Of a stretch of DNA of 64,000 nt, positions 35,398-54,699 are shown piece by piece (position 1 is the first letter of the stretch; every line of letters starts with the position of its first letter). Origin of the DNA: a virus. The DNA lies in IMG/VR virus record IMGVR_UViG_3300022602_004807, positions 1 through 64,000 of that record, one strand, 5' to 3'. The notes below the pieces were generated by a model. That model made no database searches. It was not told where the DNA came from and worked only from the letters and a program-made list of their open reading frames with translations. Both the position numbers and the translations under genes were made by a program.

Positions 35398-35488
35398 ATG
35401 AATTATCGGATATTTCCGACAAAGTTATTGACTGTGCCTGTGGGTAGGCCAGTATAGGTACATCGGAAACATGCTCACTGCCACGGAG
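35398..35488. promoter_or_regulatory. Divergent promoter region with TCGGA operator and leader box
   Basis: Operator TCGGATATTTCCGA at 35406-35419. Plus promoter: TTGACT 35428-35433, spacer 17-19, -10 near 35451-35458 (AGTATAGG). On the minus strand a GATAAT -10 (35398-35403) lies just beyond the operator, so a repressor bound there could shut the ParB/IbrA operon. Leader box CTGCCACGGAG 35478-35488 precedes the ATG at 35496. A half-site TCGGAA lies at 35463. Confidence 0.6.
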
Positions 35489-35495
35489 CCCAACG

Positions 35496-35951
35496 ATGAC
35501 CAAGATCTCCCCCCGCCGCGCAAAGACCCTCGCCGCCCGCGCCAGCCGTCGTGAGCTGGACGCCGCTCGCTTCTCCTCCGTCGTGAAGGCGATCACCCAC
35601 AAGCCGGTGTTCGTCGAAGCCGAAGATGGCCAGCGCATCCGCGTGTGGAGCGACTGCACGACCGACGCCGCCGGCCGCAAGGTGATCTCGCTGGACGTGG
35701 TCCGCGACGAAGACGTGCGCGCCTGGCTGCTGGGCAACCGGGTGACCTCGATCCGCGAGGGCCTGGAGTTCGTCCACGAGAAGTACGCTCGCGGCATGAT
35801 CCGCGACGGCTTCCTGCGCCCTGACAGCTGCGATCCGCATCAGCTCTGGATCACCGACAAGGCCGCCGAGCGCTTCAACCTGCCCCCTGTGATGGGCTGC
35901 AAGTTTCCGCCCGCCACCGGCACTGTCGGCCGCTTGGCTCAGGCCGCTTGA
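35496..35951 (+). CDS. Hypothetical early protein
   Basis: 151 aa. Basic N-terminus (KISPRRAKTLAARASRRELDAARF), then a mixed alpha/beta domain with two Cys. First gene of the plus-strand series, with its own promoter and CTGCCACGGAG leader eight bases before the ATG. It is followed after 10 bases by the Spo0J/RepB-type parB gene. No family recognised. Confidence 0.65.
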   Translation: MTKISPRRAKTLAARASRRELDAARFSSVVKAITHKPVFVEAEDGQRIRVWSDCTTDAAGRKVISLDVVRDEDVRAWLLGNRVTSIREGLEFVHEKYARGMIRDGFLRPDSCDPHQLWITDKAAERFNLPPVMGCKFPPATGTVGRLAQAA

Positions 35952-35961
35952 GGAGGGCGAG

Positions 35962-36831
35962 ATGCAGATCGAACACTGCCGCGTCCGGCCCAATCCCGAC
36001 CAGCCCCGCAAGACCTTCGACCGCCGCGAGCTCGAGGACCTCGCGGCCTCCATCAAGGAGAACGGCCTGCTCCAGCCGATCACCGTGCGCCCCCTCCATG
36101 GGGGCTATGAGATCATCGCGGGCGAGCGCAGGTGGCGCGCCCATGGGCTCCTGATCGAGCAGGGCTATGAGCCCGCCAAGATCGTGACCTGCAACGTCGT
36201 CGAAATGGACGACATGACCCGCGACATCGCCGCGATCATCGAGAACCTGCAGCGCGTCGACGTCCTGCCGCTCGAGGAGGGCCGGGCGTTCCAGCGGATG
36301 CTGGACCTGGGGATGAGCGTCGAGGAGCTGGCCAAGAAGCTCGGCCGGCCCGTGTGGCGCGTGGAGGAGCGGGTCAGGCTGATGAACCTCGACCCCGGCA
36401 TCCAGAAGCTGTGCGAGGGTGGCTTTGACCACCATGTTGCCCAAGAGATCGCCCGCCTGCCCCGCCATGCCGATCAGGTGGCGCTGGTGCAGATGTGGAA
36501 CCGTGGGTCGATCGTCGGATTCAAGGCGCTCAAGGCGGCGGTGAACGCCAAGCTCGAAGCCCTGTCCCAGAGCGATATGTTCGGAGACGCCCCGCGCGTC
36601 AGCGATGCCGACGTCGAGGTTGTGAGGTCCATGGAAGCCAAGATCGAACGCATGGCCGCCCTCGCCGCTGCTGGCTGGAAAGACGGTGAGTGCCTGGTCG
36701 CCAGCAAGGTCAGCCGTGACCGCGCCGCCCTGATGGCCGACAAGATCAAGGCCATGCGCTCTGCCCTGTTCGCCATGGAAGGCGATCTCAGAGCCGCTGC
36801 CGCTCAGGCCGAAATCGTCCTCGCCGCCTGA
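35962..36831 (+). CDS. ParB/RepB/Spo0J family protein
   Basis: 289 aa. The classic ParB motifs are present: GERRWRA (residues 54-60) and ENLQR (94-98), followed by a helix-turn-helix (MSVEELAKKLGRPVWRVEERVRLMNL). This is a true Spo0J-type layout, unlike the three shorter ParB-like proteins on the other strand. No parA or obvious parS array is nearby, so it may act as a DNA-binding regulator and not in partition. GAGGGCGAG precedes the ATG. Confidence 0.8.
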   Translation: MQIEHCRVRPNPDQPRKTFDRRELEDLAASIKENGLLQPITVRPLHGGYEIIAGERRWRAHGLLIEQGYEPAKIVTCNVVEMDDMTRDIAAIIENLQRVDVLPLEEGRAFQRMLDLGMSVEELAKKLGRPVWRVEERVRLMNLDPGIQKLCEGGFDHHVAQEIARLPRHADQVALVQMWNRGSIVGFKALKAAVNAKLEALSQSDMFGDAPRVSDADVEVVRSMEAKIERMAALAAAGWKDGECLVASKVSRDRAALMADKIKAMRSALFAMEGDLRAAAAQAEIVLAA

Positions 36832-36848
36832 GCGTCACGACCAATTCC

Positions 36849-36884
36849 CGCCCGCCTCCAGACGGCTTGATCAGGAGGCGGGCG
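36849..36884 (+). terminator. Hairpin after the parB-like gene
   Basis: Exact 11-base inverted repeat CGCCCGCCTCC / GGAGGCGGGCG with a 14-base loop, 17 bases after the stop. The T-run TTTTTT comes only at 36918-36923, behind a second small hairpin (CCGCA/TGCGG at 36894-36909). It may be a weak or composite terminator. Confidence 0.45.
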
Positions 36885-37048
36885 AGCTGTTGGCCGCAGG
36901 GCTTTGCGGTTGCTCTCTTTTTTGGGTCAAGGGGCAGAGCAGAGGCGAGCGCCCCCTCTGCTGAATTTTTCTCGAAGCCTTGAGTTTTTTAAGAGAAATC
37001 CGTCCCTCAAAAAGGTCGGAAATAGCCCCTTGAAATACTCGAAAGCAT

Positions 37049-37108
37049 TTGACCTGTGTCGGAGATTTCCTACTATAGATTTATAGGAAATAAGCTCTGC
37101 CACGGAGA
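37049..37108 (+). promoter_or_regulatory. Promoter with operator in its spacer and leader box
   Basis: -35 TTGACC 37049-37054; -10 in TACTATAGAT 37071-37080. Operator TCGGAGATTTCCTA 37059-37072 fills the spacer; a half-site TCGGAAATA lies at 37016. Leader TCTGCCACGGAGA 37096-37108 ends six bases before the ATG at 37115. The 283-base gap 36832-37114 otherwise holds only the hairpins above. Confidence 0.65.
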
Positions 37109-37114
37109 CCTAAG

Positions 37115-37303
37115 ATGACCGCAACCTTCCCCTTCAAGAACGAGATGCCTTCTCAGGAAGCCTTTGACCACATGAGCGATGCGGGGTTCTGCGACTGGTG
37201 GGATGCTTTCATTGAGCGTGTGCAGGCGCAGGCGACCAGCGAAGACGAAGTTGATGCCGCGTGCGCCGCTCGTGCGGACGCTGAAACTGCCCGTGGCTGG
37301 TGA
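37115..37303 (+). CDS. Small acidic early protein
   Basis: 62 aa, rich in Ala, Asp, Glu and Trp (MSDAGFCDWWDAFIERVQAQ). Immediately follows the promoter/leader, so it is the first product of this unit. Function unknown. Confidence 0.6.
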   Translation: MTATFPFKNEMPSQEAFDHMSDAGFCDWWDAFIERVQAQATSEDEVDAACAARADAETARGW

Positions 37304-37314
37304 GGGAGGCGACC

Positions 37315-37581
37315 ATGATGCCAGTCGGCCAAATCTTCACCCATCGTATCCTGCGCCCTTGGGTCTCCGAGGGTGTCAGGGGCACCGAGATCGCCACCTA
37401 CCGCTGCCGGGTGACCCGGCGCAACCAGTGGCAGATCGAGTTCGAGAACCTTGAGCGCCTTTCGGTCGAGGATCCCCTGCCCGGCACCGATGGCGCCCTG
37501 TCCCCCGGCGGCGGCATGACCGTCGCCTGGGCGAAGAAGCTGATCGAACGTGGGCTGATCCTGCTTGAGGAGGGCCTGTGA
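37315..37581 (+). CDS. Small hypothetical protein
   Basis: 88 aa from ATG at 37315 with AGGGAGG upstream; a GTG in frame at 37300 overlaps the previous stop and is less likely. It contains a central strand-rich segment (EIATYRCRVTRRNQWQIEFENLERL). Ends in TGATG overlap with the methylase gene, which suggests coupling. No family recognised. Confidence 0.6.
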   Translation: MMPVGQIFTHRILRPWVSEGVRGTEIATYRCRVTRRNQWQIEFENLERLSVEDPLPGTDGALSPGGGMTVAWAKKLIERGLILLEEGL

Positions 37582-38309
37582 TGCTCGACCTGTTCTCCCC
37601 GCTCAAGACGGACGTGCGGCTGGCCAAGCGCCCGCTGCGCGTCTTAATTGGCTGCGAGTTCTCCGGCGTTGTTCGGAGAGCCTTCGATGCCCTGGGCCAT
37701 GATGCTTGGTCCTGCGACCTGCTCAAGGCCGAAGACGGCTCCAACAAGCATCTGGTGGGCGACGTCCGCCAATTCCTCGGGATGGGCTGGGACCTGCTGT
37801 TCCTCGCTCATCCGCCCTGCACCCGCCTCTGCCTGTCTGGCGTTCGGTGGCTGCATGTTCCGCCGCCGGGCAAGACGCTCGAGCAAATGTGGGCCGAGCT
37901 CGACGAGGCCGCAGCTCTGTTCTCGGACTGCTGGAACGCGGACCAGACCCACGGGATTCCGCGAGTGGCTGTCGAGAACCCGATCATGCACCGCCATGCG
38001 CGGGAGCGGATCAAGAACTACCCGACCAAGGACCAGATGCAGACCGTCCAGCCATGGTGGTTTGGGGAGGAGGCCTTCAAGGCGACAACCCTGCACCTCA
38101 AGGGCCTACCTCCCCTCGCTCCCACCCAGCGGCTCGAACCGCCCAAGCCCGGCTCTGCCGAGCATAAGGCGTGGTCTTGGATCCATCTTATGCCGCGCGG
38201 CCCCAATCGCTGGAAGCTGCGGAGCCGGACGTTTCAGGGCGTTGCCGAGGCCATGGCGATGCAGTGGGGCGGCTACGTCGAAGAACTCAACCTGTTTCGG
38301 AGAGGTTGA
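37581..38309 (+). CDS. C5-cytosine DNA methyltransferase-like protein
   Basis: 242 aa from ATG at 37581. The sequence begins with a SAM-site-like CEFSGVVRRAFDALGHDAWSCDLL. The PPC catalytic motif is present (FLAHPPCTRLCLSG), as is ENP (VAVENPIM). A C-terminal RTFQGVAEAMAMQWGGYV resembles the terminal motifs that close the fold. It lacks a long target-recognition domain, and motif I departs from FxGxG, so activity should be tested. It is convergent with a minus-strand gene two bases away. Confidence 0.7.
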   Translation: MLDLFSPLKTDVRLAKRPLRVLIGCEFSGVVRRAFDALGHDAWSCDLLKAEDGSNKHLVGDVRQFLGMGWDLLFLAHPPCTRLCLSGVRWLHVPPPGKTLEQMWAELDEAAALFSDCWNADQTHGIPRVAVENPIMHRHARERIKNYPTKDQMQTVQPWWFGEEAFKATTLHLKGLPPLAPTQRLEPPKPGSAEHKAWSWIHLMPRGPNRWKLRSRTFQGVAEAMAMQWGGYVEELNLFRRG

Positions 38310-38311
38310 GT

Positions 38312-38702: not shown

Positions 38703-39032
38703 TTATCGCTCGGGCGGATAAGGCGCGTAGGGAGCCGGCGGGCGGGTCGGTGGTCCAAGGGCAATCTTGGTCGCTTCCTCGCCCTTCAACCAGCGCCGGA
38801 CCTCTTCCGCGAAAATGTTGTCGGCCAAAGGGTCGATGAAGACCCGATCCTTGGGTGTATGCCGCAGGGCCGGCAGGGTGTCGGCGCTGAGGTACTGCCA
38901 GATGACGGTGTAGGCGAGCCGCTCGCTGCGATTCCTGAGATCCTGGAACAGGCGCGTGCGGCGTTCGTGCGACTGCACGATCAACCAGAGCGGCTTGCCG
39001 TCATCCGGCAGGGAGCTGGCAAAGCTGGTCAT
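38703..39032 (-). CDS. Hypothetical protein of the minus-strand island
   Basis: 109 aa, basic and aromatic (RRTRLFQDLRNRSERLAYTVIWQYLSADTL) with a Pro-rich C-terminus ending PPAPYAPYPPER. The start overlaps the previous stop (ATGA), so it is coupled to the 62-aa membrane protein. No family recognised. Confidence 0.55.
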   Translation of the reverse strand: MTSFASSLPDDGKPLWLIVQSHERRTRLFQDLRNRSERLAYTVIWQYLSADTLPALRHTPKDRVFIDPLADNIFAEEVRRWLKGEEATKIALGPPTRPPAPYAPYPPER

Positions 39033-39217
39033 TCGAGTCCGAGCTCAACAAGGATTCCGAGAGAGGCGACGATCCACGTCAGGACGATCAGTCCGGCGAG
39101 GACGACAATCTTGCGTTTTGGCACCGGGTCATCCTCACAGGGCGACATCGACAGTTCCGGCCACCAGCAATCCTGAGCCTTGTAGAGGCTGCCGCAGTGC
39201 TCGCAGGGATGCCTCAT
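39029..39217 (-). CDS. Small Cys-pair membrane protein
   Basis: 62 aa. N-terminal CEHCGSLYKAQDC (possible zinc site), then one membrane segment (residues 36-57, KIVVLAGLIVLTWIVASLGILV). First gene of the minus-strand island and divergent from 39327 across a region with two operator palindromes. Confidence 0.6.
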   Translation of the reverse strand: MRHPCEHCGSLYKAQDCWWPELSMSPCEDDPVPKRKIVVLAGLIVLTWIVASLGILVELGLE

Positions 39218-39234: not shown

Positions 39235-39320
39235 TCGGATATATCCGATAAGCACTTTACCGTGCCTGCCGATATGGTAGATTGCTTTATCGGATTTATC
39301 CGATCTTCTGCCACGGAGAC
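39235..39320. promoter_or_regulatory. Divergent promoter region with two operators and leader box
   Basis: Two palindromes: TCGGATATATCCGA 39235-39248 and TCGGATTTATCCGA 39290-39303, 55 bases apart. Plus promoter: TTTACC 39256-39261, 16-base spacer, TAGATT 39278-39283, lying between the operators. Leader TCTGCCACGGAGAC 39307-39320 precedes ATG 39327. The first operator is 18 bases from the minus-strand start at 39217, so both directions could be controlled. Confidence 0.65.
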
Positions 39321-39326: not shown

Positions 39327-39695
39327 ATGAAAACCTACCTGCCCATCGTGACCTACGGATCCGAGCGGTATTTCCCGGAGACCAAGGTCAGCTACAGCCG
39401 CGATGACGCGAAGGACGATGTCTGGACCGGCCAGTTCGACGAGATCCATTCGGTGATCGAGGTCGACCTGACCACCGGCACCGCCATCGACGTGCTGCCC
39501 GAAATCATTGAGGAGCTGGCCTCCCGCTCATTCGCCAAGTGCCAGACGCCGCACGACGCCTTGGCCGAGGCCATGGAGGAAGCCGGTCACGAGTTCTACG
39601 GGGCCGACGAGCGCCGCCGGGAGCAGCAGCATTGGGATCGCGTCAACTTCGAGATGCAGCTCGCCAAAGACCGGCGCGCTGGCCTTGAGCCTTGA
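39327..39695 (+). CDS. Hypothetical early protein
   Basis: 122 aa from ATG at 39327, seven bases after the leader box. It is acidic, with helical C-terminal half (ALAEAMEEAGHEFYGADERRREQQHWDR). First of an operon running to about 43069, in which most genes overlap or nearly touch. No family recognised. Confidence 0.6.
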   Translation: MKTYLPIVTYGSERYFPETKVSYSRDDAKDDVWTGQFDEIHSVIEVDLTTGTAIDVLPEIIEELASRSFAKCQTPHDALAEAMEEAGHEFYGADERRREQQHWDRVNFEMQLAKDRRAGLEP

Positions 39696-39705
39696 GGAGG
39701 TCACC

Positions 39706-40473
39706 ATGTCCGCGAAAGAGAACCTCCTCCGCCGCCTGAAGGCGTTACTTGCCAAGACCGTCGAGAACGGTGCGTCCGAAGCCGAAGCGATGTCCGCTCT
39801 GGCCAAGGCCCAAGAGATCATGCAGGCCCACGGCCTGAGCCAAGAAGCGATCGAGGCCGAGGCCTTCGTCGAGCAGCTGATCGAGAAGCGCGCCGCCCGC
39901 AAGTATGCGTGGCATAAGGACATCGCCTATGGCGTCGGCTGCTTCACCGGCACCTACCCCTACATGCGCGAGGGCTATCAGGTCGTGTTCGCCGGGCGCG
40001 AGACCGCGACGATGTTCGCTGGCTGGCTCTGCGATGCGCTCGACGGCTTTGTGACCCGCAACGCCCTCGCCTACCTCAACGAGGCAGGTGGGGCGCGGGC
40101 CACCGGCACCAAGCGCAGCGTCTATGTGCCCGGGCAGGCCGATATGTTCGGCTCGTCCGCAGTCGTGAAGCGTGACCCCGAGACCGACTACCAGCGCCAG
40201 CAGCGCCTGCAGGCTTTCGCGATTGGCGTGTGCCAGCGCGTCACCCAGCGGCTCCGCGATCTGTCGACCACCGAATCCATGGAGCAGCGCAGGCTCGCCC
40301 AGAAGCGCCTGGAGGAGCAGGGCATGTCGTTTCAGCAGCGACGCAGCCATGGCCCTGACATCCGAGACCGTGCCGCCTACGAGGCCGGGCAGCGCGTTGG
40401 CGACAAGGCCACGTTCAACCGCCCGGTGGGTGGTGGAGCCGGTGGCGCACCACTTCAGATCGGGAGGGCATGA
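39706..40473 (+). CDS. DUF2786 domain protein
   Basis: 255 aa from ATG at 39706 with GAGGAGG upstream. The N-terminal 40 residues (LLRRLKALLAKTVENGASEAEAMSALAKAQEIMQAHGLS) are the DUF2786 signature, followed by the usual accompanying domain (YAWHKDIAYGVGCFTG, VFAGRETATMFAGWLCDAL). The C-terminus is Arg/Gln-rich. Common in phages and plasmids; function unknown. Confidence 0.8.
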   Translation: MSAKENLLRRLKALLAKTVENGASEAEAMSALAKAQEIMQAHGLSQEAIEAEAFVEQLIEKRAARKYAWHKDIAYGVGCFTGTYPYMREGYQVVFAGRETATMFAGWLCDALDGFVTRNALAYLNEAGGARATGTKRSVYVPGQADMFGSSAVVKRDPETDYQRQQRLQAFAIGVCQRVTQRLRDLSTTESMEQRRLAQKRLEEQGMSFQQRRSHGPDIRDRAAYEAGQRVGDKATFNRPVGGGAGGAPLQIGRA

Positions 40474-40754
40474 TGACTGTGACCGAAATGGACGCAGACC
40501 TTGAGGACGCGCGCAGCTTCCTCTCGGTCACCCGGTTCGAGGTTCGCCGTTGCGAGCACGAGACCGTGACCAGCACCGCCCTGTGGGTGTTCGACGATGG
40601 CCGACAGATAGCCTGCATCGTGCGCAACGAGGGCAGCCTGTCCAAGTACCGCTGGCGCGCGAACAAGATGCGCAACAGCCAGCCGATCACCGAGATGCCG
40701 TTCCAGACGCTTGCGGGCGCCTGTGCCTACGTCATCGACTGCTGCGGGAGGTGA
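40470..40754 (+). CDS. Hypothetical protein
   Basis: 94 aa, starting at ATG overlapping the previous stop (ATGA), with GGGAGGG upstream. Alternating strands and two Cys near the N-terminal part plus CC near the end. No family recognised. Confidence 0.6.
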   Translation: MMTVTEMDADLEDARSFLSVTRFEVRRCEHETVTSTALWVFDDGRQIACIVRNEGSLSKYRWRANKMRNSQPITEMPFQTLAGACAYVIDCCGR

Positions 40755-40756
40755 GC

Positions 40757-40960
40757 ATGGCTTGGGCTATCGAAACTCGCTTCACCTACGGCTGGGAGAA
40801 CGTCTTCCGTGAGGATGAAAAGCTGGTCACCTTTCCAAATTTTGAGGCGGCCGAGGACGCGCTCGACGATCACCTTGCCGATCTGCACGACGCCTTCCTG
40901 CGGCGTGAGATCGAAGATTACAGCGCAGGCGACTATCGCATCAGGGAGGTAGAGCCATGA
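40757..40960 (+). CDS. Small acidic protein
   Basis: 67 aa from ATG at 40757 with GGGAGGTG upstream. Aromatic N-terminus (WAIETRFTYGWENVF), acidic helix with DHLADLHDAFLRREIEDY. Ends in ATGA overlap with the following membrane protein. Function unknown. Confidence 0.6.
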   Translation: MAWAIETRFTYGWENVFREDEKLVTFPNFEAAEDALDDHLADLHDAFLRREIEDYSAGDYRIREVEP

Positions 40961-41160
40961 CCCCATGGATCGCCTGCGGCACCGTCCTGTTCCTGATGCC
41001 CATCGTGCTTTGCTACTGGCGCTACGGGTCGATCGACGATGAAGCGTTCACCCGCTTCATGGCCGGCCTGTCTCTGCTCGACCATCTGCGACTGGTCAAT
41101 GTCGTTCGCCTGGGCGGCGCAATGGCGCTGTTCGGGTTCCTGTCCCTGTTTCTTCGCTGA
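40957..41160 (+). CDS. Small membrane protein
   Basis: 67 aa with two hydrophobic segments (residues 4-20 and about 48-65). Start overlaps the previous stop (ATGA). It may be an early inner-membrane protein involved in host takeover or exclusion, but this is conjecture. Confidence 0.6.
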   Translation: MTPWIACGTVLFLMPIVLCYWRYGSIDDEAFTRFMAGLSLLDHLRLVNVVRLGGAMALFGFLSLFLR

Positions 41161-41170
41161 GGAGGAACCG

Positions 41171-41362
41171 ATGCCCAAGAAGAAAGTCGTCGAAGTCATT
41201 GTCAAGCTGCGTGTACCGGCGTGGATGACCCCAAGCGAGGCGCGGCGCGAGGTGCGCACCCTCATCAATGAGCAGTGCAACTTCATGGCCTACGGGCCGG
41301 GATATGCCGATGTGTGCGTCCGAGCAGCCAGCGTTAAGTCAGCCAAGAGGAGCGCAAAATGA
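41171..41362 (+). CDS. Small basic protein
   Basis: 63 aa from ATG at 41171 with GAGGAGGAA upstream. N-terminal Lys-rich strand (PKKKVVEVIVKLRVPAWMTPSEARREVR) and C-terminal basic tail. Ends in ATGA overlap. Function unknown. Confidence 0.55.
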   Translation: MPKKKVVEVIVKLRVPAWMTPSEARREVRTLINEQCNFMAYGPGYADVCVRAASVKSAKRSAK

Positions 41363-41613
41363 AAGTTTATCGGATCATCTGGCACAGCGACGTCGTCGAC
41401 TTCTACGAGACGCTGGCCGAGGCCAAGCGCGCTGCCCGGGTGGGCGCTGACCGTGTTCGCATGACCGTCGAGGTCGACGAGGTCTTCGTCCGTCAGGACA
41501 TCGGCGGGCGTGAGCTCGCGGTGAAGATGCTCAACGACGCCGGTTGGATCGAGCGTGAGCAGGTGGTGTTCACCGCCCGGCCTAAAGACCCAGCCGACAT
41601 GGAGCCGGCGTGA
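41359..41613 (+). CDS. Hypothetical protein
   Basis: 84 aa, start overlapping the previous stop (ATGA). Alternating strand/helix pattern (MKVYRIIWHSDVVDFYETLAEAKRAARV) as in small ferredoxin-like folds. Last gene before an internal leader box at 41668. Function unknown. Confidence 0.55.
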   Translation: MKVYRIIWHSDVVDFYETLAEAKRAARVGADRVRMTVEVDEVFVRQDIGGRELAVKMLNDAGWIEREQVVFTARPKDPADMEPA

Positions 41614-41667
41614 ACCCAGCGGCGTGTCGGAGCTCTGGCCCCGGCAGTCCGAAGGGCTCACCCTTCA

Positions 41668-41680
41668 TCTGCCACGGAGA
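41668..41680 (+). promoter_or_regulatory. Internal TCTGCCACGGAGA leader box
   Basis: Exact copy of the leader seen after promoters at 37096 and 39307, six bases before ATG 41687. I see no convincing promoter or full operator palindrome in the 73-base gap 41614-41686, only a GTCGGAG half-site near 41627. The box may therefore work in translation rather than transcription. Confidence 0.6.
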
Positions 41681-41686
41681 ACAACC

Positions 41687-43120: not shown

Positions 43121-43208
43121 TCGGATATATCCGACTTAGATATTGTAATTTGTCGGAAAATTGGCTAGTCTCGTAGCAGGTCAAACGACCTATCTGCCAC
43201 GAAGGAGA
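43121..43208 (+). promoter_or_regulatory. Promoter with operators and leader box
   Basis: Perfect operator TCGGATATATCCGA at 43121-43134. Promoter: TTGTAA 43143-43148, 17-base spacer that contains TCGGAAAATT (43153-43162), TAGTCT 43166-43171. Leader TCTGCCACGAAGGAGA at 43193-43208, followed by ATG 43217. Same arrangement as at 37049 and 44360. Confidence 0.7.
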
Positions 43209-43731: not shown

Positions 43732-43734
43732 GCC

Positions 43735-43959: not shown

Positions 43960-43961
43960 CC

Positions 43962-44359: not shown

Positions 44360-44436
44360 TTGCTTTCTTGTCGGATATTTCCTACAATCAGAAGGTCGGA
44401 AAACAGAATATCCGACAGCATCTGCCACAGGAGACA
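44360..44436 (+). promoter_or_regulatory. Promoter with operator in its spacer and leader box
   Basis: -35 TTGCTT 44360-44365, 17-base spacer, -10 TACAAT 44383-44388. Operator TCGGATATTTCCTA 44371-44384 lies in the spacer and touches the -10. A second, wider site TCGGAAAACAGAATATCCGA lies at 44396-44415. Leader TCTGCCACAGGAGACA 44421-44436 precedes ATG 44440. Confidence 0.75.
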
Positions 44437-45616: not shown

Positions 45617-45670
45617 GAGGGGCCCGTGTGGCCCCTCTATCGGTGCGCCTCTGCACCTTGCCACGAAGGA
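45617..45670 (+). promoter_or_regulatory. Hairpin plus TTGCCACGAAGGA leader box
   Basis: GAGGGGCC (45617-45624) / GGCCCCTC (45630-45637) forms an 8-base stem without a T-run. A leader box variant TTGCCACGAAGGA at 45658-45670 precedes ATG 45679. No full operator or clear promoter is seen in 45607-45678, so the downstream gene may be read through from 44440. Confidence 0.5.
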
Positions 45671-46918: not shown

Positions 46919-47047
46919 ATGTGGCTACAGATACCACGCGATTCGACCAAGTTCAAGGAGACGTCGTCGGGTATCTCGTTGAATTGGCCTATGTGTGGTT
47001 TGGAATCGGATGATCCGATTGTCTGCCACGATCTGAAAACTGTCTGA
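46919..47047 (+). CDS. Possible 42-residue peptide
   Basis: 42 aa, starting at ATG 46919 after a leader box (TCTGCCACGA 46891-46900) and AGGAG. No domain. The 3' half overlaps a promoter-like sequence, an operator and a second leader box. The signal context supports initiation, but the peptide may be a remnant. Confidence 0.35.
   Translation: MWLQIPRDSTKFKETSSGISLNWPMCGLESDDPIVCHDLKTV
46979..47031 (+). promoter_or_regulatory. Promoter-like sequence, operator and orphan leader box
   Basis: TTGAAT 46979-46984, 16-base spacer, TGGAAT 47001-47006; operator TCGGATGATCCGA 47006-47018; leader box TCTGCCACGA 47022-47031. No supported gene follows on this strand before the terminator at 47068. Confidence 0.45.
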
Positions 47048-47136: not shown

Positions 47137-47640
47137 TCATAGCGTTGTTGGGATGGATATTTGTCTCACCTGTTCCAATTGGTCAACGTCTGCAGAGGTG
47201 TACGGGACATGGTCGTTATTCAGACAGTCCGCGACAAACTGCAAACCTTGGTCGATGCGCCGATAGGCTGTCGCCCTCGACCACCCACGATTTCTGCAAT
47301 AGCGAGCAAATGAACGGTGATGCACGGCACACATGACCTGCCCCCACAGGCAGCGGCGCATCCCGGACTGCTTGGCGAGGTACTTGACTGACCAGTCGAG
47401 GACCTGCTCGGCGCGGGTGATGGCGTCGGCCTTGGGCGGAATGCGCGCCGGCTTCCAGTTCCATTCGCCCTTGTCTCGTTCCGGCTCCTGGCGGTTCGCA
47501 TCAGCCAGGTCGTGCACCACGTCCGGCATGGCGTTGCCGAAGGCCTTAGGCAGCTTCACGGGTGGCAGTCGGCGGAACGTCTCAGCAGCCTCGATGAAGC
47601 GCAGATAGACGTCGTCCTTGCCCCATACCTTGAACGTCAT
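47137..47640 (-). CDS. DUF6362-like helix-turn-helix protein
   Basis: 167 aa from ATG at 47640 (ATGA overlap with the helicase gene). The C-terminal half has HRSFARYCRNRGWSRATAYRRIDQGLQFVADCLN, a helix-turn-helix seen in DUF6362 proteins near phage replication genes. It is the last gene of the replication operon and may act as a DNA-binding or terminase-like regulator. Confidence 0.6.
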   Translation of the reverse strand: MTFKVWGKDDVYLRFIEAAETFRRLPPVKLPKAFGNAMPDVVHDLADANRQEPERDKGEWNWKPARIPPKADAITRAEQVLDWSVKYLAKQSGMRRCLWGQVMCAVHHRSFARYCRNRGWSRATAYRRIDQGLQFVADCLNNDHVPYTSADVDQLEQVRQISIPTTL

Positions 47641-49031
47641 AGGAAGCTCTCCTGCTCGATCTCTTGCTGTTTGGCTGGTTTCGCCGGGGCTGCCCCCAGA
47701 TCCGTGAACATGGTCAGATGTCCGATGAAGTCGCATTCTCGCGTTCCCCTTCCTTTGCCGCGCCGCCGCTTGGCCAGCACAAGTTCTGCTCGACCGCGCC
47801 AGCGGTTCATTTCCTGCTCCCACTCCGCACGGGTCGATGACGAAGGATCCGGCTCCTCCAGCTCCAGCCAGTATTCAGGGCGGTGGACGAAGAACACGAC
47901 GTCCGCGGACTTCTCGATCTCGGAGGCGCCGAACAGGTCGGACATCTGCGGCCGCTTGTTCTGGCGCTTCATCACGTCACGGTTGAGGTGGGAGAGGCAG
48001 AGCCATGGGATCTTGGTCTGCTTGGCTGCGGCCTTGAGGTCTTTGACGATGACGGTCAGCGCCTCAAAGGAGTCGCGCACCTTCCTGTCGGGTTCGAGGT
48101 AGTGCAGGTGATCGACGACCACGAAGGCGACGTTGTGCTTTTTCTGGAAGTAGAGGACCCTTGCCAGATCGGCCCCGACGGTTGCCCGGGCTGGGTTCTC
48201 GATCCATAGCGGCAACGCGCTGAGTTCCTCCGTGGCCCGCATGACCCGGTATTCCTCATCAGCGTTCATCTCGCCTGCCTCGATCCTTTCCACACTCACC
48301 TGAGCGAGCTGTGACACGAAGCGGGCCGTGATCTGGCGGTCTGACATCTCATGCGTGATGAACAGCGTCCTGACGCCTTGGCGGGCCTGCGCCAGCGCGA
48401 TCTGCTGTGCAAGCGCGGTCTTGCCCATGCTCGTGGAACCGCCCAGCACCACAAGATCCTCGGGCAGCATTGGGCCGATAAGGGAATCGACGAAGGACAG
48501 GCCGGTGCGCAAGCGGGTGGTGTCTGAGTTCTTCTCCGCGACGCTGGCATTGAAGACCTGAATGGCCAGCTCACCGACCATCTTGCCGCGATCGCTGCGC
48601 CCACCCAGCAGGCCCATCATGCCGGACTGGATGTCATGCAGGGTGCCTCTGGCTGGCAGAGCCTTGTCCTGCAGGTTCGCCAGAGACTGCTCAAGAATCT
48701 TCTTGGCGGCCCGGCGGGTAGCCATGTCCTCGATGTCCTGCGCGAAGTCGAGGGCCGTCATGGACTCTGGCGCCCCGCCCATCAGCCGGGCGAGGTAGGT
48801 CGTCATGTTGATGTCGGTTTCCACCTTCACGCGCTGCGCGATCAGCGCACGGCTCAGCGACGGGTGGTTCTCCTGCGCCAGCTCGGTCAAGGCGGCATAG
48901 ATGGCAGCCAGCACGGGGTCGCCAAAGCTGCCCGGTGTGATGATGTCCGCGATGTCCCAGATCTGTTCCGGGTTTCGCAAGATACAGCCGATGAGATCTT
49001 CTTCGAGTTCAGTATTGACGAGCGGGTTCAT
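47637..49031 (-). CDS. dnaB: Replicative DNA helicase, DnaB family
   Basis: 464 aa. N-terminal DnaB domain (LEEDLIGCILRNPEQIWDIADIITPG). RecA-like C-terminal domain: Walker A GGSTSMGKTALAQQ (residues 197-210), H4-like FITHEMS, Walker B VVVDHLHYLEPD, LCLSHLNRDVMKR and SADVVFFVHRPEYW. Drives fork unwinding of phage DNA. It overlaps the primase gene by 23 bases, an expected partner. Confidence 0.88.
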   Translation of the reverse strand: MNPLVNTELEEDLIGCILRNPEQIWDIADIITPGSFGDPVLAAIYAALTELAQENHPSLSRALIAQRVKVETDINMTTYLARLMGGAPESMTALDFAQDIEDMATRRAAKKILEQSLANLQDKALPARGTLHDIQSGMMGLLGGRSDRGKMVGELAIQVFNASVAEKNSDTTRLRTGLSFVDSLIGPMLPEDLVVLGGSTSMGKTALAQQIALAQARQGVRTLFITHEMSDRQITARFVSQLAQVSVERIEAGEMNADEEYRVMRATEELSALPLWIENPARATVGADLARVLYFQKKHNVAFVVVDHLHYLEPDRKVRDSFEALTVIVKDLKAAAKQTKIPWLCLSHLNRDVMKRQNKRPQMSDLFGASEIEKSADVVFFVHRPEYWLELEEPDPSSSTRAEWEQEMNRWRGRAELVLAKRRRGKGRGTRECDFIGHLTMFTDLGAAPAKPAKQQEIEQESFL

Positions 49032-50031
49032 GAATGGCCTTCAGCATGTCGAGAAAATCGGTGCCGATGGGTGGCAGAGGTTCGATGATGGCCTTGCGCC
49101 CGCTCTCGCGGACTCGCTGCGCCAAGGTGGTCGCAGCCTTCATGCCCGGCGGAAGGCCCTCGCCGTGCGGCATGTCTGAATCTGGAAAGATGCGCACCGT
49201 GCGCACGAAGTCTGGCAGGTCGAGGCCCATCATCCCGGAGGTCGAGAGAGAGGCCCACACGGGGAAGGCGCGCTCCGACAGCTCCCAGACCGCGAGGGCC
49301 GTCTCAATGCCCTCCGTCACCGCGATCTCGGGGCCGTCAGGGCCGATCCTGATGGCACACCCCTTGGCACTCCCCATGCCCACCTTGTTGGGCTCCACGG
49401 CCGCCTTCTGCCCGTCGGGTGTGAGATAGATGCGCCAGATCCCCCTACCCTTGCGCTGAGCATTGATGAAGACTCCGATCAGTGCTGGGAACCGAGGGCC
49501 GTCCTTGATCTTGAAGCGGCCGTTGAACACTGCCCCGAATGGCCACTCCAGATCGGGGACGTAGCGCAGGCACTTCGGCCAATCTGTCTTGGCAAGCCCA
49601 CGCCCCTGGAGATACCGCTCCGCTGGCGTGCCTTCGATGGGCAGCGCGGCATGGAAGATCTCCAGCGCAGACAGCTCGCGGCGGCGCTTGCGGGCGTCCT
49701 CCTTTTTCGTGTCGCGGGGAGCAACGCGGCGGGGCTCCTCCGATGGACCCAGCCGCAGGAATGAGCGGGCCCACTCGCAGGCGTCCTTGATCGAGCAGCC
49801 GCGCACTTCCTTGATGAGGCCGATCAGGTCGCCGCCCTCCTTGGACCTGCCCCAGAATCCGACGACGCCCTGCTTCGAGCCGGTCAGCACAACCGAGATG
49901 GCATAGCCCGTGGGGCTCACCGAGCCTGAACACTGCCACTCGTTGCCGTGCCGCTTGCCGTCAGGCAGCAGGTGTTGGGCCAGCTCCATGGCATGTGGAG
50001 CCAGCGCGTGCGCGAGGTCTGTGGCTTTCAT
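49009..50031 (-). CDS. Toprim-domain primase
   Basis: 340 aa. N-terminal part with GNEWQCSGSVSP and DLIGLIKEVRGCSIKDACEWAR (primase zinc-finger-like region without the cysteines). YLQGRGL..P..LRYVPDL and then the Toprim domain: EGIETALAVWEL and IFPDSD. Makes primers for replication with the DnaB helicase. Start overlaps the previous stop (ATGA). Confidence 0.8.
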   Translation of the reverse strand: MKATDLAHALAPHAMELAQHLLPDGKRHGNEWQCSGSVSPTGYAISVVLTGSKQGVVGFWGRSKEGGDLIGLIKEVRGCSIKDACEWARSFLRLGPSEEPRRVAPRDTKKEDARKRRRELSALEIFHAALPIEGTPAERYLQGRGLAKTDWPKCLRYVPDLEWPFGAVFNGRFKIKDGPRFPALIGVFINAQRKGRGIWRIYLTPDGQKAAVEPNKVGMGSAKGCAIRIGPDGPEIAVTEGIETALAVWELSERAFPVWASLSTSGMMGLDLPDFVRTVRIFPDSDMPHGEGLPPGMKAATTLAQRVRESGRKAIIEPLPPIGTDFLDMLKAIHEPARQY

Positions 50032-50402
50032 TGGGTGCCGGCTTTTCTCGCTCTCACGAGGGCCACATTCACGCGGCCGACATTGCAGTTCAGTTTGGCC
50101 GCAAGTTCTTTCGGCGTGTCCTTCGGATACTTCCGGGCCAATGCAAGAACATCGTCATCGGTGACCTTGGCGCGACCATTTGAGACTTCAGGCTCGTCGA
50201 TGATGACGGGTTTGAGGTCGTCTGGATGAGGCTTGCTGATGATCAGGACCGGCTCCTCATCATCCTCCTCGTCTGGCCAGATGGTTTCGACTGCCATGAA
50301 GATGGCGCGGGCAATGCGATCAGCGTCCGCAGAAGACCTGATGCGCGCCTGCACGATGATCTCGTCCTCGTGCATGGTGATGGTGACTTGCTTCTCGGTC
50401 AT
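50028..50402 (-). CDS. Small putative DNA-binding protein
   Basis: 124 aa from the second ATG (50402), nine bases after GAAGGG; an ATG nine bases earlier is also possible. Acidic middle (WPDEEDDEEPV) and a C-terminal helix-turn-helix-like LARKYPKDTPKELAAKLNCNVGRVNVALVRARKAG. Between the primase and a methylase gene. May be an accessory replication or regulatory factor. Confidence 0.55.
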   Translation of the reverse strand: MTEKQVTITMHEDEIIVQARIRSSADADRIARAIFMAVETIWPDEEDDEEPVLIISKPHPDDLKPVIIDEPEVSNGRAKVTDDDVLALARKYPKDTPKELAAKLNCNVGRVNVALVRARKAGTQ

Positions 50403-50403
50403 T

Positions 50404-51018
50404 TTAGCCATCCCTTCGTAGCCAGCTGATCTCGGGCTCGCCGTCGTAACCGCGCAGCCAGATGTACCAAGCGAAGTCCTTCTCGCCGCCGCCGGGATTG
50501 ATGCCAGCCTCGATCACAGGGCCTGGGGGCATGGAAGGGCGCGCGGTCAGGAACAGGACACGGCGCAATGGCGTGGCCTGCAACTGACGGGTCCACGTGT
50601 CCCCCGTCAGCCTGCCAACTGGCAGGAGGAGGGCGACCTTGTAGCGGGCACGCTGGAGAGCAAGGTCGACAAATTCTTCGATGTGCTTGTAGGGCGGGTT
50701 GCTGACGATGTTCATGATCGGCCGACCAATCGGCCACTGCCATGACAGGAAATCCCGCTCCTCCTGACAGACATCGCTGCGCTTGCGCAGATCAAAGCCG
50801 GTGGCGTGGAGTCCGGCAGAGCGGGCCGACTCTACGATGCGGCCCAGACCACAAGACGGGTCGACAATCTCGCCTTCGAAGCGTTCCACATGAAACAGTC
50901 GTTCGCTTACCCAGCGAGGCTCGACATACCAATCCTCCGGGTGTCGCTCCCAGAGGTGCGCGTCTTTTCGCTTCTTTCCGCCTTTGGCTGGTAGGCCATC
51001 TTCCGGTGCGTCTTGCAA
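50404..51018 (-). CDS. DNA methyltransferase-like protein
   Basis: 204 aa if started at TTG 51018, after GGGAGA; an in-frame ATG at 51081 gives 225 aa with a longer overlap with gcrA. Motif I IVDPSCGLGRIVESA and motif IV SNPPY mark a DNA amino-methyltransferase fold. KYKVALLLPVGRL-like strand and C-terminal WYIWLRG are consistent. Third amino- or C5-methylase in the window. The start is uncertain. Confidence 0.65.
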   Translation of the reverse strand: MQDAPEDGLPAKGGKKRKDAHLWERHPEDWYVEPRWVSERLFHVERFEGEIVDPSCGLGRIVESARSAGLHATGFDLRKRSDVCQEERDFLSWQWPIGRPIMNIVSNPPYKHIEEFVDLALQRARYKVALLLPVGRLTGDTWTRQLQATPLRRVLFLTARPSMPPGPVIEAGINPGGGEKDFAWYIWLRGYDGEPEISWLRRDG

Positions 51019-51488
51019 AATGATCTCCCATCGTCTGTGTGGCAGCCGCAATAGCGGACAGGGTTTTCGCCGATGGGCCATCGACAGGTGTCGATTGAAA
51101 GGTCCATCAGGTCGATTGGCTCAATGCCCGGCAGCGCCGCGTAGGCTTTCGACTTGTCGAAGCGGAATGTCTCGCCAGTCTGGAATGCAACCTGATCAGG
51201 CGAAGGCGGTGGCGATGGTCGACGCTGCACAGGTGGGGGTAAAGGCGCTGGTGCCGCGACGATCTGGGGCGGTCTGCGAATCCGCTTCGGCCTTGAAGAT
51301 GGCCCCGGCTTTGGTCTTGGCACCAAGCTGCGCGTCCAGCCCCGTCGATGGCAGTGCCCGATGACCGCGTTGCGCGAGAGAGGATGCGCAGGAAAATGGG
51401 CGCACAAGGCCGCCGAAATCTGGCTGGCAGACTTCCCCTGCTTGAACAGGCTTTCCATCATGTCGAGCATGGGTTGGGTGATGCTCAT
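50907..51488 (-). CDS. gcrA: GcrA-family cell-cycle regulator
   Basis: 193 aa. The N-terminal helix-turn-helix KQGKSASQISAALCAHF..HPLSRNAVIGHCHRRGW and the C-terminal TCRWPIGENP..YCGCHTDDGRSFCKTHRKMAYQP are the two conserved parts of GcrA, joined by a Pro-rich linker. In Caulobacter, GcrA binds sigma-70 RNA polymerase and activates promoters carrying methylated GANTC. A phage copy may redirect this programme. Overlaps the next two genes. Confidence 0.85.
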   Translation of the reverse strand: MSITQPMLDMMESLFKQGKSASQISAALCAHFPAHPLSRNAVIGHCHRRGWTRSLVPRPKPGPSSRPKRIRRPPQIVAAPAPLPPPVQRRPSPPPSPDQVAFQTGETFRFDKSKAYAALPGIEPIDLMDLSIDTCRWPIGENPVRYCGCHTDDGRSFCKTHRKMAYQPKAERSEKTRTSGSDTRRIGMSSLAG

Positions 51489-51946
51489 GCCAGATCTCCA
51501 AGAATGCGCTGCACGTCAGCAGCGATGAGGCCGATGAGAACCGCGGAGGCCGGATACCGTGGCACCTCCAGCAGGTGAGCCAGCTTGCGCAGCTGAAGCA
51601 GGTCGATCTTGTCGAACGTCTCGAACAGGATCAGACCCAGATCCCGCCAGTCTGGATGGCGGGCGATGAGAATGGTCAGCGCAGTGAGCATGTCGGCGCG
51701 CAACAGCCCTGCATTGCCGTTTCCTGTCTCGTTGATGAGCCGGATGGCGAGGATCACATTCTCCTGACCATGCTGCTTCACGAGACGTTCAATGGTGGTG
51801 ACGGCAAAGGTCTCCCCCGCCTCGCACTTCTTGCCGAACTTCGGCACCCGCACGTCGACCGACGTCAGCAGGCGCTTCAGCTCACGCGCCTTGCGGTTGC
51901 GGTTGCGGACGTTGCGGTGGAATCGTTCAAACGCCAGCAGCTGCAT
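51485..51946 (-). CDS. Hypothetical helical protein
   Basis: 153 aa from ATG at 51946; a GTG at 51979 gives 164 aa. Basic N-terminus (RFHRNVRNRNRKARELKRLL), then AGETFAVTTIERLVKQHGQENVILAIRLINETGNGNAGLLRADMLTAL. The stop overlaps the gcrA start (ATGA). Possibly a DNA-binding or ParB-like regulatory protein, but no family is recognised. Confidence 0.5.
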   Translation of the reverse strand: MQLLAFERFHRNVRNRNRKARELKRLLTSVDVRVPKFGKKCEAGETFAVTTIERLVKQHGQENVILAIRLINETGNGNAGLLRADMLTALTILIARHPDWRDLGLILFETFDKIDLLQLRKLAHLLEVPRYPASAVLIGLIAADVQRILGDLA

Positions 51947-52472
51947 GTGGCTCAAATCCGAATAGAGAACCTTCTGCACTAAACTCGGGGTGAAGCCGGG
52001 CGCGCTCGAAGACCATCAGGCCCAGCGCGTCCGCCTCGTCGTCGGTGCTGACATTCCAGCCCCTTGCGGCGCACTCCTCGCGCGATTGGGCCTTGAGCCA
52101 TTTCCGGCGCTCTGGCTTGAGCAAGGTGCGGGGTGCGTTCGCCTGCCCGAGGAACCGCTTGCGCCATTCGCCCTGCGAGATCTCGTTGAGCGGAATGGAC
52201 CGGCGATAGGCGAGCTCACGGGTGATGCCCATGAGCCCATAAAGGCGGCTGGCAGCGCTTGCCGTTTCAGCCGAAACGTAGATCCCCTCGACCCCGATGT
52301 GCTCCACCCGCTCGGTGATGAGCTTTGCGGTCAGCCAGTCGCGATAGGCCGCGAAGGTCTGGCCCGGGCTGCCGGTTGGCAGTTTGGCGCAGCCCCAGAT
52401 CGGGGACTGGTCCGCCGGGCGCCAGATCGCCCAGCCGGTCTTGCCAGCGAGGTCGAGGGTGAGGATGGTCAT
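51927..52472 (-). CDS. RuvC-like Holliday-junction resolvase
   Basis: 181 aa from ATG at 52472 (ATGA overlap). RNase H-like fold: first acidic residue in ILTLDLAGKTGWA, the second in VEGIYVSAE, the last pair in STDDEADALGLMVFERA. Such enzymes trim branched DNA before packaging. Upstream frame extension overlaps the previous gene and is not used. Confidence 0.75.
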   Translation of the reverse strand: MTILTLDLAGKTGWAIWRPADQSPIWGCAKLPTGSPGQTFAAYRDWLTAKLITERVEHIGVEGIYVSAETASAASRLYGLMGITRELAYRRSIPLNEISQGEWRKRFLGQANAPRTLLKPERRKWLKAQSREECAARGWNVSTDDEADALGLMVFERARLHPEFSAEGSLFGFEPHAAAGV

Positions 52473-52957
52473 CAGTGCTTGGCCTTGCCCTTGGCAGGCT
52501 TCTCTTCGATGGTCTTGATGCCCTGCAGGAGGACCGATTGACCCTCGCGATAGGCTGCCAGCCATGCCTGCCCAGCAGGAGAGCCAACATCGAATGGGCA
52601 CTCGCTCTCGGATGCGCCCAACTTGCCCGCCCTGGCCCCTTCCGCTGTGGCCTTGGCGATGGTGCTTTCCTCGGTCACGGGCTCGACGGAGAACAGATCG
52701 AGCTGCCCATAGACAGGCACGTTCAGGTATTGCGCATAGCGGACCATGTTGTTGAACTGGCCAACCAGCTCATGCTCATCGAGCTTCAGCAGCCTCCGGA
52801 CGGCATCGAGGTCGGCAAGGACCACACCGTCGGCCTTGGCCTGCTTGCGGGCATTCCGGACAGCCGCAGTCGCCTCGGCCTGCTTTTTCTCAGCAGCAGT
52901 GATCTGCTTCAGATGGTGTAGGACCAATGGCTCAGTAACATTTGCCTGTTCTGACAT
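52472..52957 (-). CDS. Hypothetical protein with Rmf-like C-terminal segment
   Basis: 161 aa. Helical N-terminus (ITAAEKKQAEATAAVRNARKQA), linker, then ASESECPFDVGSPAGQAWLAAYREGQ. This resembles the short motif of ribosome-modulation-factor-like phage proteins (CPF..GS..G.AWL.GY..GQ). AGGAGAG precedes the ATG. First gene of the replication operon. Ribosome binding is not established. Confidence 0.55.
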   Translation of the reverse strand: MSEQANVTEPLVLHHLKQITAAEKKQAEATAAVRNARKQAKADGVVLADLDAVRRLLKLDEHELVGQFNNMVRYAQYLNVPVYGQLDLFSVEPVTEESTIAKATAEGARAGKLGASESECPFDVGSPAGQAWLAAYREGQSVLLQGIKTIEEKPAKGKAKH

Positions 52958-53004
52958 GTAAGCTCTCCTTCAACTTGGCGTTAAGTGCCTGCCCGGCCGT
53001 CAAA

Positions 53005-53079
53005 ACCTTGACCGGATTTCCTGTGCTCCTCAGAACGACGGACCTTGACCAAGTCAGGGGTCATGTCTGATATGTCCGA
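53005..53079. promoter_or_regulatory. Direct repeat and operator upstream of the replication operon
   Basis: ACCTTGACC occurs at 53005-53013 and 53042-53050. A degenerate operator TCTGATATGTCCGA is at 53066-53079, inside the 3' end of the next gene. No convincing promoter could be assigned. The gap 52958-53053 may hold the replication operon's promoter or part of an origin; this is inference. Confidence 0.35.
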
Positions 53080-53476
53080 CAGGGACGAGAGGAACTGGTG
53101 TTGAAATACCCATTCCAACCCCATCGTCAGCTGACTGAGGCTTTGCCGTTTTCCGACTTCGCCTTGGCCTTACAATGGGGACGTCATCGGCAGGTGATGC
53201 CACCTGCTCGGAAGGAGCATGTTGATGTTGCGTAGGAATCGCTTCGAGCTTTGCCTTACGGGCCGCCAACTCGGCGTCCATAAAGGTGATCAGCTTGTCG
53301 TACTGGCGGGGCGTGAGCTGTCGCTTGCCCAGCCCGACTTCGCTCATGAAGGATCCGTCCTTCAGCACAAGGCGCCCAAGGTTGGAAACTTTGATTCCAG
53401 TGATCTCAACGAAGGTCTCCGCATAGCGCAGGAGGTCCTCCTTGAGCCGCTTCTCGGCGTCGCGAATGATGTCCAT
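53054..53476 (-). CDS. Cro-like candidate regulator divergent from the repressor
   Basis: 140 aa from ATG at 53476; an in-frame TTG at 53512 is less likely because it puts the operator inside the gene. A helix-turn-helix-like region is seen at residues 25-75 (VEITGIKVSNLGRLVLKDGSFMSEVGLGKRQLTPRQYDKL). The C-terminus is disordered. Position, divergent to CI across operators, suggests a Cro role. Direct family evidence is weak. Confidence 0.5.
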   Translation of the reverse strand: MDIIRDAEKRLKEDLLRYAETFVEITGIKVSNLGRLVLKDGSFMSEVGLGKRQLTPRQYDKLITFMDAELAARKAKLEAIPTQHQHAPSEQVASPADDVPIVRPRRSRKTAKPQSADDGVGMGISTPVPLVPVGHIRHDP

Positions 53477-53477
53477 G

Positions 53478-53504
53478 TCGGAAAGGTTGTCGGAAATTTC
53501 CCGA
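53478..53504. promoter_or_regulatory. Tandem operators between Cro-like and repressor genes
   Basis: TCGGAAAGGTT begins at 53478 and TCGGAAATTTCCCGA lies at 53490-53504; the latter contains the perfect palindrome GGAAATTTCC. They are 12 bases apart, immediately upstream of the minus-strand ATG. Same sequence family as the operators at 35406, 39235, 43121, 44371 and 54656, which links this repressor to the rest. Confidence 0.6.
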
Positions 53505-53564
53505 CGAAGCAAGTGGGTCTCATCGAAAATTCTGGAGGAGCACAGGTAATTTTAGGAGGTCATC

Positions 53565-54233
53565 ATGAGCCGTGCTTATAAGCGCAAGCCCGCGCAAGAG
53601 GCTGACGTGACCACGGAAAGAATCCGTCAGCGTCTTGAAATTCTTGGCATACCGAACACGACTGCGTCCGAATTGGCAGGGCTCGAGCGAGGCTATCTGT
53701 CCGATTTTCTGACTGGCAAAAAGAAATCCATGAACCACACGATCCTGCGGCCGCTTGCCGAAGTTCTGCAATGCAGCGTGGGATTTTTGATTGGTGAATC
53801 GGAAGACATTACCATTCGCGAACGTGCGACACTGCCGTTGGCCGGCGTCGTTGAAGTCGGCGCCTGGCGCAAATGTGTTGTTGCTGCGAAGCCGTCCGAA
53901 CTCCTGGCGCTTCCGAACTGGCCCGCTGAAGATCAGGCGGTTTACGAAGTGCGCGGATCCGGCGCAGACAGCGAAGCTCCGGATGGCTCGTTCGTGCAGA
54001 TTGTAACCTTCCATGAAGGCACAGCTTTGCAGGATGGGAAGCTTTATGTCGTCGCAGAACGGTCGGACGGGCTTCGGGAACTAACCCTGCGCCGCGCTCG
54101 AAAAATTGGCGATAACTTTGAGCTATGGGCCCCGACCAAGTCGGAGGTCATCGAGCCGATCTCCTATGACCCTGGAAACTCGGCAATCAAGATCATCGGG
54201 ACTGTAGTGAGAATCTGCTCCCTGACCACCTGA
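53565..54233 (+). CDS. CI-type repressor, HTH + S24-like domain without catalytic residues
   Basis: 222 aa. N-terminal helix-turn-helix (TTERIRQRLEILGIPNTTASELAGLERGYLSDFLTGKKKSM). C-terminal S24-like domain with an Ala93-Gly94 pair, as at cleavage sites (PLAGVVEVGAW). In a gapless alignment to VxGDSMxPxxxDG, the catalytic Ser is Gly133 and the Lys is Arg176. So it should repress but not self-cleave. TTTTAGGAGGTC precedes the ATG. Probably binds the TCGGA operators. Confidence 0.75.
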   Translation: MSRAYKRKPAQEADVTTERIRQRLEILGIPNTTASELAGLERGYLSDFLTGKKKSMNHTILRPLAEVLQCSVGFLIGESEDITIRERATLPLAGVVEVGAWRKCVVAAKPSELLALPNWPAEDQAVYEVRGSGADSEAPDGSFVQIVTFHEGTALQDGKLYVVAERSDGLRELTLRRARKIGDNFELWAPTKSEVIEPISYDPGNSAIKIIGTVVRICSLTT

Positions 54234-54590
54234 ACCTTTGCTTGCCCTTATGGTGAAGACCAGAGCAGTGGGCAAAGACCGTCTATTCCCGCGGGTGAGG
54301 CAGGAGACGGTCCACCGGGGAAAGCCTGCCCTTACGGAGCCGACCGTCGCTTGCGGGGCTTCCTGCCAGATCGGGACAGGATGCTAGAAGAACTGCTTGG
54401 TCGAGTCCGATCCTCGCCACGCGCGCGGCTTCCTCTTTCGACCGACCGCTGCCCTTTGCGCGCATCCCCCCGGTAGGGCCTTTCCCCGTGAACAGCCGGA
54501 GGAGCCCGGTTCACGGCGAAACAGCACATGCCAAGGATCGGTTGAGGATCGTGGGACGGTCGTGGCAGATGCGTTCCGAGCGGGAGATTG
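54234..54590. other. Non-coding, structured stretch after the repressor gene
   Basis: No convincing gene. Several inverted repeats: GACCGTCT/AGACGGTC (54277-54284, 54305-54312) and CCGTGAAC/GTTCACGG (54486-54493, 54509-54516). A leader-box copy on the minus strand (ATCTGCCACG, 54561-54570) follows a weak minus promoter. It may encode an antisense or regulatory RNA. Open frames here have poor start signals and odd composition. Confidence 0.4.
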
Positions 54591-54699
54591 CGCCGGGAGA
54601 TTTCCACCGTCAAGCGAGATTTCCCACATTCGAACTCAATCTTACATTTGACAGATAGGATATATCCGACTAGATTAAGGGAACACTCTGCCACGAGGT
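54585..54699. promoter_or_regulatory. Early promoter with operators and leader box (plus) and weak minus promoter
   Basis: Plus: TTGACA 54648-54653, 17-base spacer containing operator TAGGATATATCCGA (54656-54669), TAGATT 54671-54676, leader TCTGCCACGAGGT 54687-54699. Minus: TTGACG (54608-54613), 17-base spacer, CAATCT (54585-54590), a weak match. GGAGATTTCC (54596-54605), identical to part of the 37059 operator, and a second GAGATTTCCC (54616-54625) lie here. Confidence 0.7.

Follow-up and report, generated by a model that had tools for sequence, protein, structure and literature searches.

The first 64,000 bases of a 67,752-bp virus contig (G000; IMG/VR record IMGVR_UViG_3300022602_004807), hereafter the window, carry a short inverted repeat, TNGGA-N4-TCCNA, that recurs in promoter regions over 19 kb. 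Which protein reads these sites, and what kind of control circuit do they form? We conclude that they are very probably operators of the phage's own CI-type repressor, encoded at 53565-54233, which is predicted to bind them; this reading is supported because repressors that share its recognition helix, encoded by other phages, adjoin dyads of the same form.

The pattern TNGGA-N4-TCCNA has exactly seven matches in the contig (35406, 37059, 39235, 39290, 43121, 44371 and 54656) against a mean of 0.94 in shuffled sequences, a count that is partly post hoc because the pattern was generalized from relatives after the window sites were known. Other spacer lengths from 0 to 12 give at most two matches each, and the reversed pattern gives none in the contig. 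The intergenic placement and the test on out-of-sample loci described below are, unlike the count, not post hoc. All seven sites are intergenic, although intergenic DNA makes up only 9.7% of the contig (P = 8e-8), as judged with a gene map built from a codon-usage caller and manual additions (a greedy map of open reading frames (ORFs) hid intergenic regions). The initial annotation had listed nine copies of a 14-mer, nearly all of them between genes, and had named equal frequency inside genes as the result that would count against it; the nine copies are all real (those at 47006 and 53490 being length or one-base variants), and no such equality was found. At up to three mismatches the 14-mer has 10 matches in the window, whereas shuffles average 1.55 and never reach 10; near-matches at 50123 and 53066 fall inside genes, and the one at 50123 looks like chance. 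Both arms are perfect at 35406, 39235, 39290 and 43121, and one arm base is changed (T[CA]GGA/TCC[GT]A) at 37059, 44371 and 54656; base 2 of the half-site is mostly C and sometimes A. The seven core sites occupy six intergenic regions between 35406 and 54669 and, with the variants at 53490 and 47006, about seven promoter regions of the phage carry a site. Unweighted dyad counts at two mismatches were swamped by GC-rich words and were dropped.

A scan of 20 kb found only two strict sigma-70-like sequences, and these hold the 37059 and 54656 operators. For these two sites the proposed location in the -35/-10 spacer is thus confirmed; for the third that had been placed there, at 44371, it is plausible (Table 1). 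The remaining operator sites score no better against the sigma-70 consensus than random intergenic positions. Outside these three sites, the flanks hold weaker promoter-like sequence, in which a promoter is plausible.

The 53565-54233 product matches a PHROG transcriptional repressor (1.3e-7) and scores 21.5 bits against Pfam S24, just under the cut-off of 23.3. Its AlphaFold (AF2) model, built from a four-sequence alignment with a predicted local distance difference test (pLDDT) score of 72.7 and a predicted template modelling (pTM) score of 0.52, has Foldseek matches to LexA and lambda CI, and as modelled the protein fits a LexA/CI-type repressor with a helix-turn-helix (HTH) and an S24/LexA-like C-terminal domain. 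As first annotated, one copy of the motif lies between this gene and its divergent neighbour; it is the variant at 53490, one fixed base off. A single-sequence search of viral contigs returned no relatives of the repressor; alignments were needed.

The recognition helix of the window repressor is of the type GLERx[FY]xxD (hereafter GLER). Microcystis phage Mae-JY30 (PP438422, positions 1-31000; L049) encodes a homologous repressor with 33-35% identity to that of the window, and has TTGGA-N5-TCCAA at the divergent repressor promoter and a one-mismatch copy before the orthologous DUF932 gene. At up to one mismatch there are six such sites against 0.7 expected; three are intergenic in the GenBank annotation and two more lie close to gene ends. 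The listed host of this phage is cyanobacterial; its DUF932 protein is 63% identical to that of the window phage and the relatives of its repressor are alphaproteobacterial, so it may actually infect a bacterium that accompanied the cyanobacterium in culture. In genome G717, from the order of Pararhizobium haloflavum, the repressor at locus L106 has the helix GLERNFINDILNGKK, with TCGGA-N4-TCCGA sites immediately before the gene and another two, one of them inside TTGACA-17-TAGCCT. Locus L071 (helix GLERTFIRDIVEGRK) has two TGGGA-N4-TCCCA sites near the start codon.

The rule TNGGA-N4-TCCNA was set from these three relatives before further loci were scanned. The helix pattern [AG]GLERx[FY][ILV][NSR]D then gave 16 loci, 14 of them new, and at least one TNGGA-N4-TCCNA dyad was present in 13 of the 14, the other (L171) having only a one-mismatch site. 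Dyads were of the TAGGA type in L164-L168, TTGGA in L170 and L174, TGGGA in L172 and L178, and TCGGA in L177, with mixed arms in L173, L175 and L176; among perfectly symmetric dyads a spacer of 4 was far commoner than 3, 5 or 6. Several loci show 'ttgacag-operator-ct', near the placement at 54656 in the window ('TTGACAG-operator-CTTA'). Of about 50 homologues without GLER, by contrast, only two show a symmetric dyad in the upstream 300 bp, a control that uses a somewhat different search span from the GLER count. These homologues came from alignment-based genome searches, which found many of them and no new GLER member besides L106 and the P. haloflavum prophage. In G717, the identical word TCGGATGTTTCCGA also occurs on five contigs away from the repressor (C1:308470, C3:95002, C20:22779, C24:8297 and C45:168218), perhaps as a repeated element that carries the motif by coincidence.

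Between phages, base 2 of the half-site varies, usually in both arms together, and this change is the part of the pattern that descent alone does not explain. Several observations weigh against assigning the sites to the repressor. The GLER loci are not fully independent and the counts are uncorrected for descent; the helices of L164-L167 are identical. Neither can base 2 be read off cleanly from the helix residue: treating it as a strict function of one residue was not upheld, as serine goes with T twice and asparagine with C twice, but asparagine also occurs once with A or G, and glycine with both C and G. In G002, which encodes a GLER homologue, the repressor promoter lacks a good dyad, and the only such sequence, TTGGATCAATCCAC, stands ahead of the DUF932 gene. 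Finally, the window repressor has only the variant site 53490 at its own promoter, where relatives have two or three good sites.

Other readings of the sites fare worse. The phage's ParB-like protein (35962-36831) could bind them, either as a global repressor in the manner of KorB, a member of the ParB family in plasmid RK2 whose palindromic operators are dispersed, or at dispersed parS-like partition sites. It has ParB_N and HTH_ParB domains, its operon begins at the 35406 site, and KorB does repress from operators on RK2 (PMC11790492). However, the sites do not track a ParB-family protein: Mae-JY30 has dispersed TTGGA-N5-TCCAA, yet the window ParB has no match in either of the two proteins annotated there as ParB/sulfiredoxin. 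The dyads of relatives cluster instead at the S24-type repressor gene, and the window sites sit in promoter spacers, so we regard binding by ParB as improbable. Slightly less credible still is a host regulator that times early phage transcription, for which CtrA, a host regulator that controls some alphaproteobacterial phages (PMC9437464), is a precedent; the half-site varies from phage to phage along with the phage-encoded repressor, and the 4.6-Mb G717 genome has 12 exact-arm sites, 4 of them in a 1.2-kb stretch around the repressor gene. Least probable of all is a promoter-leader cassette dispersed and kept by copying, with most copies no longer bound by a repressor: a leader (CTGCCACGGAG) does recur alongside the sites and 47006 resembles a decayed copy, but operator and leader stand anywhere from 4 to 59 bp apart, whereas the dyads are conserved, and relatives keep dyads despite differing half-site bases and surroundings.

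Under control by the phage's own repressor, the protein would bind TNGGA-N4-TCCNA dyads, probably as a dimer, and cover the -35/-10 spacer or flank of early promoters so that RNA polymerase is excluded. In a lysogen, about seven promoter regions would be silenced. The rightward targets would be the units beginning at 35496 (perhaps together with its divergent neighbour), 37115, 39327, 43217, 44440 and 54706; at 53490, the leftward replication operon and the repressor's own gene would be shut off together. Binding, dimerization, repression, lysogeny and immunity in the window phage are all things that we infer from sequence. The original proposal that a single repressor controls at least six units is supported by the number of promoter regions with a putative operator and by the same-helix repressors that adjoin the same dyads. 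Cleavage driven by RecA is a doubtful route to induction, because in alignments the self-cleavage lysine position of the window repressor reads arginine and the serine position is shifted or lost; in the same kind of alignment GDSM and the lysine are kept in L071, and the GDSM serine in L106.

One repressor motif at many separate promoters fits the functional class of dispersed-operator immunity systems, as far as predicted sites can assign it. Contigs of twelve GLER relatives carry one to five sites each, and these mostly form two clusters, of which one adjoins the repressor and the other lies 1-6 kb away; because these contigs may be incomplete, failing to see sites elsewhere does not prove that there are none. 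Most simply read, two clusters in the manner of lambda are the usual arrangement in the GLER family, and the window phage, and Mae-JY30 in its way, spread their operators to many promoters. We suggest tentatively, at somewhat less than an even chance, that operators in this family went from a pair of lambda-like clusters to a scattered regulon, with TNGGA-N4-TCCNA retained as the binding rule and base 2 of the half-site defining immunity groups, and that the window phage and Mae-JY30 (15-bp spacing) catch this transition. Sequence alone gives a rule for what this family of repressors, from prophages and metagenomes, binds, and the rule predicts immunity groups among them. Clustered and dispersed layouts become comparable with the repressor type held constant, which makes the question of why operators disperse testable.

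Portal, terminase and other packaging or structural genes lie leftward of about 35 kb in the window, and 35-64 kb holds small early-type genes, ParB, methyltransferases, and replication and recombination genes. A phage-integrase domain at the right end of the contig (67000-67752) indicates a temperate phage. The host is probably an alphaproteobacterium, because relatives of the DUF932 protein and the repressor are found in P. haloflavum and other members of its order. The phage collection held no DNA near-identical to the window. Between the repressor and the recombination operon is an unusually long intergenic stretch of 470 bp (54234-54705); it has no Rfam match, and 54234-54650 shows no RNA structure beyond chance (z -0.22).

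Table 1 Putative operators and associated features of the window, with promoter elements as read from the sequence.
Feature	Position	Strand	Context
Operator TCGGATATTTCCGA	35406..35419		Between divergent 34753-35373 (-) and 35496-36831 (+, ends with ParB gene)
Candidate -35, TTGACT	35429		Near 35406 operator
Operator TCGGAGATTTCCTA	37059..37072		Spacer of promoter TTGACC (37049) .. ACTATAGA, upstream of 37115-38309
Operator TCGGATATATCCGA	39235..39248		Upstream of 39327-43069 (+) and divergent 39029-39217 (-)
Operator TCGGATTTATCCGA	39290..39303		Same promoter region as 39235 site, downstream of -10-like TAGATT
Operator TCGGATATATCCGA	43121..43134		Upstream of 43217-44299
Half-site TCGGA	43153		In spacer of TTGTAA-17-TAGTCT, near 43121 operator
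Operator TCGGATATTTCCTA	44371..44384		Spacer of TTGCTT-17-TACAAT, upstream of 44440-45606 (DUF932 gene)
Wide dyad TCGGA-N10-TCCGA	44396..44415		Adjoins 44371 operator; possible secondary half-sites
13-bp variant (N3) TCGGATGATCCGA	47006..47018		Leader motif follows; overlaps doubtful 42-amino-acid ORF 46919-47047; perhaps a degenerate copy of the promoter cassette
Weak operator candidate TCTGATATGTCCGA	53066..53079		Near 3' end of 53054-53476 (-), 108 bp upstream of 52472-52957 (-); uncertain
Variant TCGGAAATTTCCCGA	53490..53504		Gap between repressor (+) and divergent replication operon (53476 leftwards); one fixed base off, N4 register
Operator TAGGATATATCCGA	54656..54669		Spacer of TTGACA-17-TAGATT (54648-54676), upstream of 54706-55017, exonuclease (55014) and RecT (56524)
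Leftward replication operon	47137..53476	-	DnaB-like helicase, primase, RuvC-like resolvase and others; starts at 53490 variant
CI-type repressor, 222 amino acids	53565..54233	+	N-terminal HTH (recognition region GLERGYLSDFLTGKKKSM) and LexA/S24-like C-terminal domain
Leader CTGCCACGGAG, start-associated	35478..35488	+	More copies at 37097, 39308, 41669, 43194, 44422, 46892, 47023 and 54688; variant near 45661

The leader, with variants that contain CACGAAGGAG or CACAGGAG, stands just before start codons, mostly of operator-controlled units; TCTGCCAC is found in seven leaders (log10 P -12.6, estimated from a Poisson model with no correction for word number). A related phage, G001 (IMGVR_UViG_2756170239_000002; L058 and L059), has the leader CTACCACGGAG or CTACCACAGGAG, again including one before its DUF932 gene, so that the form is CTGCCAC(G/A)..GGAG in the window and CTACCAC.GGAG in G001 despite different operators. 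There, TGATGTA-N4-TACATCA occurs at six sites (6890, 15463, 16568, 24610, 27431 and 31783), all intergenic (P = 5e-5), one of which precedes an HTH_3 repressor gene (15782-16498, minus strand) by 70 bp. These putative operators suggest a second dispersed-operator system with another specificity and another repressor. Mae-JY30 has a different leader, GATTGATTG. Searching viral contigs for the operator-plus-leader pattern gave three single hits without promoter context, which we took as chance. In another contig, G006 (IMGVR_UViG_3300042691_024428; L014 and L054-L057), 21 copies of TTTGCC-N5-GGCAAA extend over 62 kb, the whole contig, several of them directly before start codons; this pattern is unlike an ordinary set of promoter operators.

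Among known systems, the window repressor resembles lambda CI in its HTH and LexA-like C-terminal domain, in dyad operators that overlap promoters and in the divergent early operon beside its gene. Same-helix relatives, with mostly two operator clusters, recall lambda OR and OL, whereas in the window phage about nine sites are scattered over 19 kb; in the alignments, its repressor has arginine at the lysine of LexA-type self-cleavage. In the actinobacterial phage phiC31, conserved inverted-repeat operators are dispersed at early promoters, a likeness to the window phage in the operators. The leader shares its position next to start codons with the start-associated sequence (SAS) of cluster K phages (TM4), about half of which have an inverted repeat upstream, termed ESAS (PMC3203893); the sequences are different, the ESAS repeats have 17-bp arms, and that paper assigned ESAS no function.

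Dispersal itself has precedents. Phage P1 has 22 operators spread over its genome for one lysogeny repressor, C1 (PMC8546580); the likeness is again one of layout, and P1 sites are 17 bp and asymmetric, unlike the window dyads. Cluster A mycobacteriophages have many scattered sites for a single immunity repressor, and from phage to phage motif and repressor diverge together (PMC6550527). The initial annotation had likened the window to such actinophages, which holds for the dispersed layout and fails for the sites: those of L5 are asymmetric, 13-14 bp long and bound by a repressor monomer, and they lie for the most part outside promoters and follow the direction of transcription, whereas the window sites are dyads in promoter regions and have neither the asymmetry, the orientation nor the location outside promoters of L5-type stoperators. 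Dispersed operators as such were already known; what is new here is their combination with a LexA-like repressor, with dyads in promoter regions and with same-helix relatives in which the sites are clustered.

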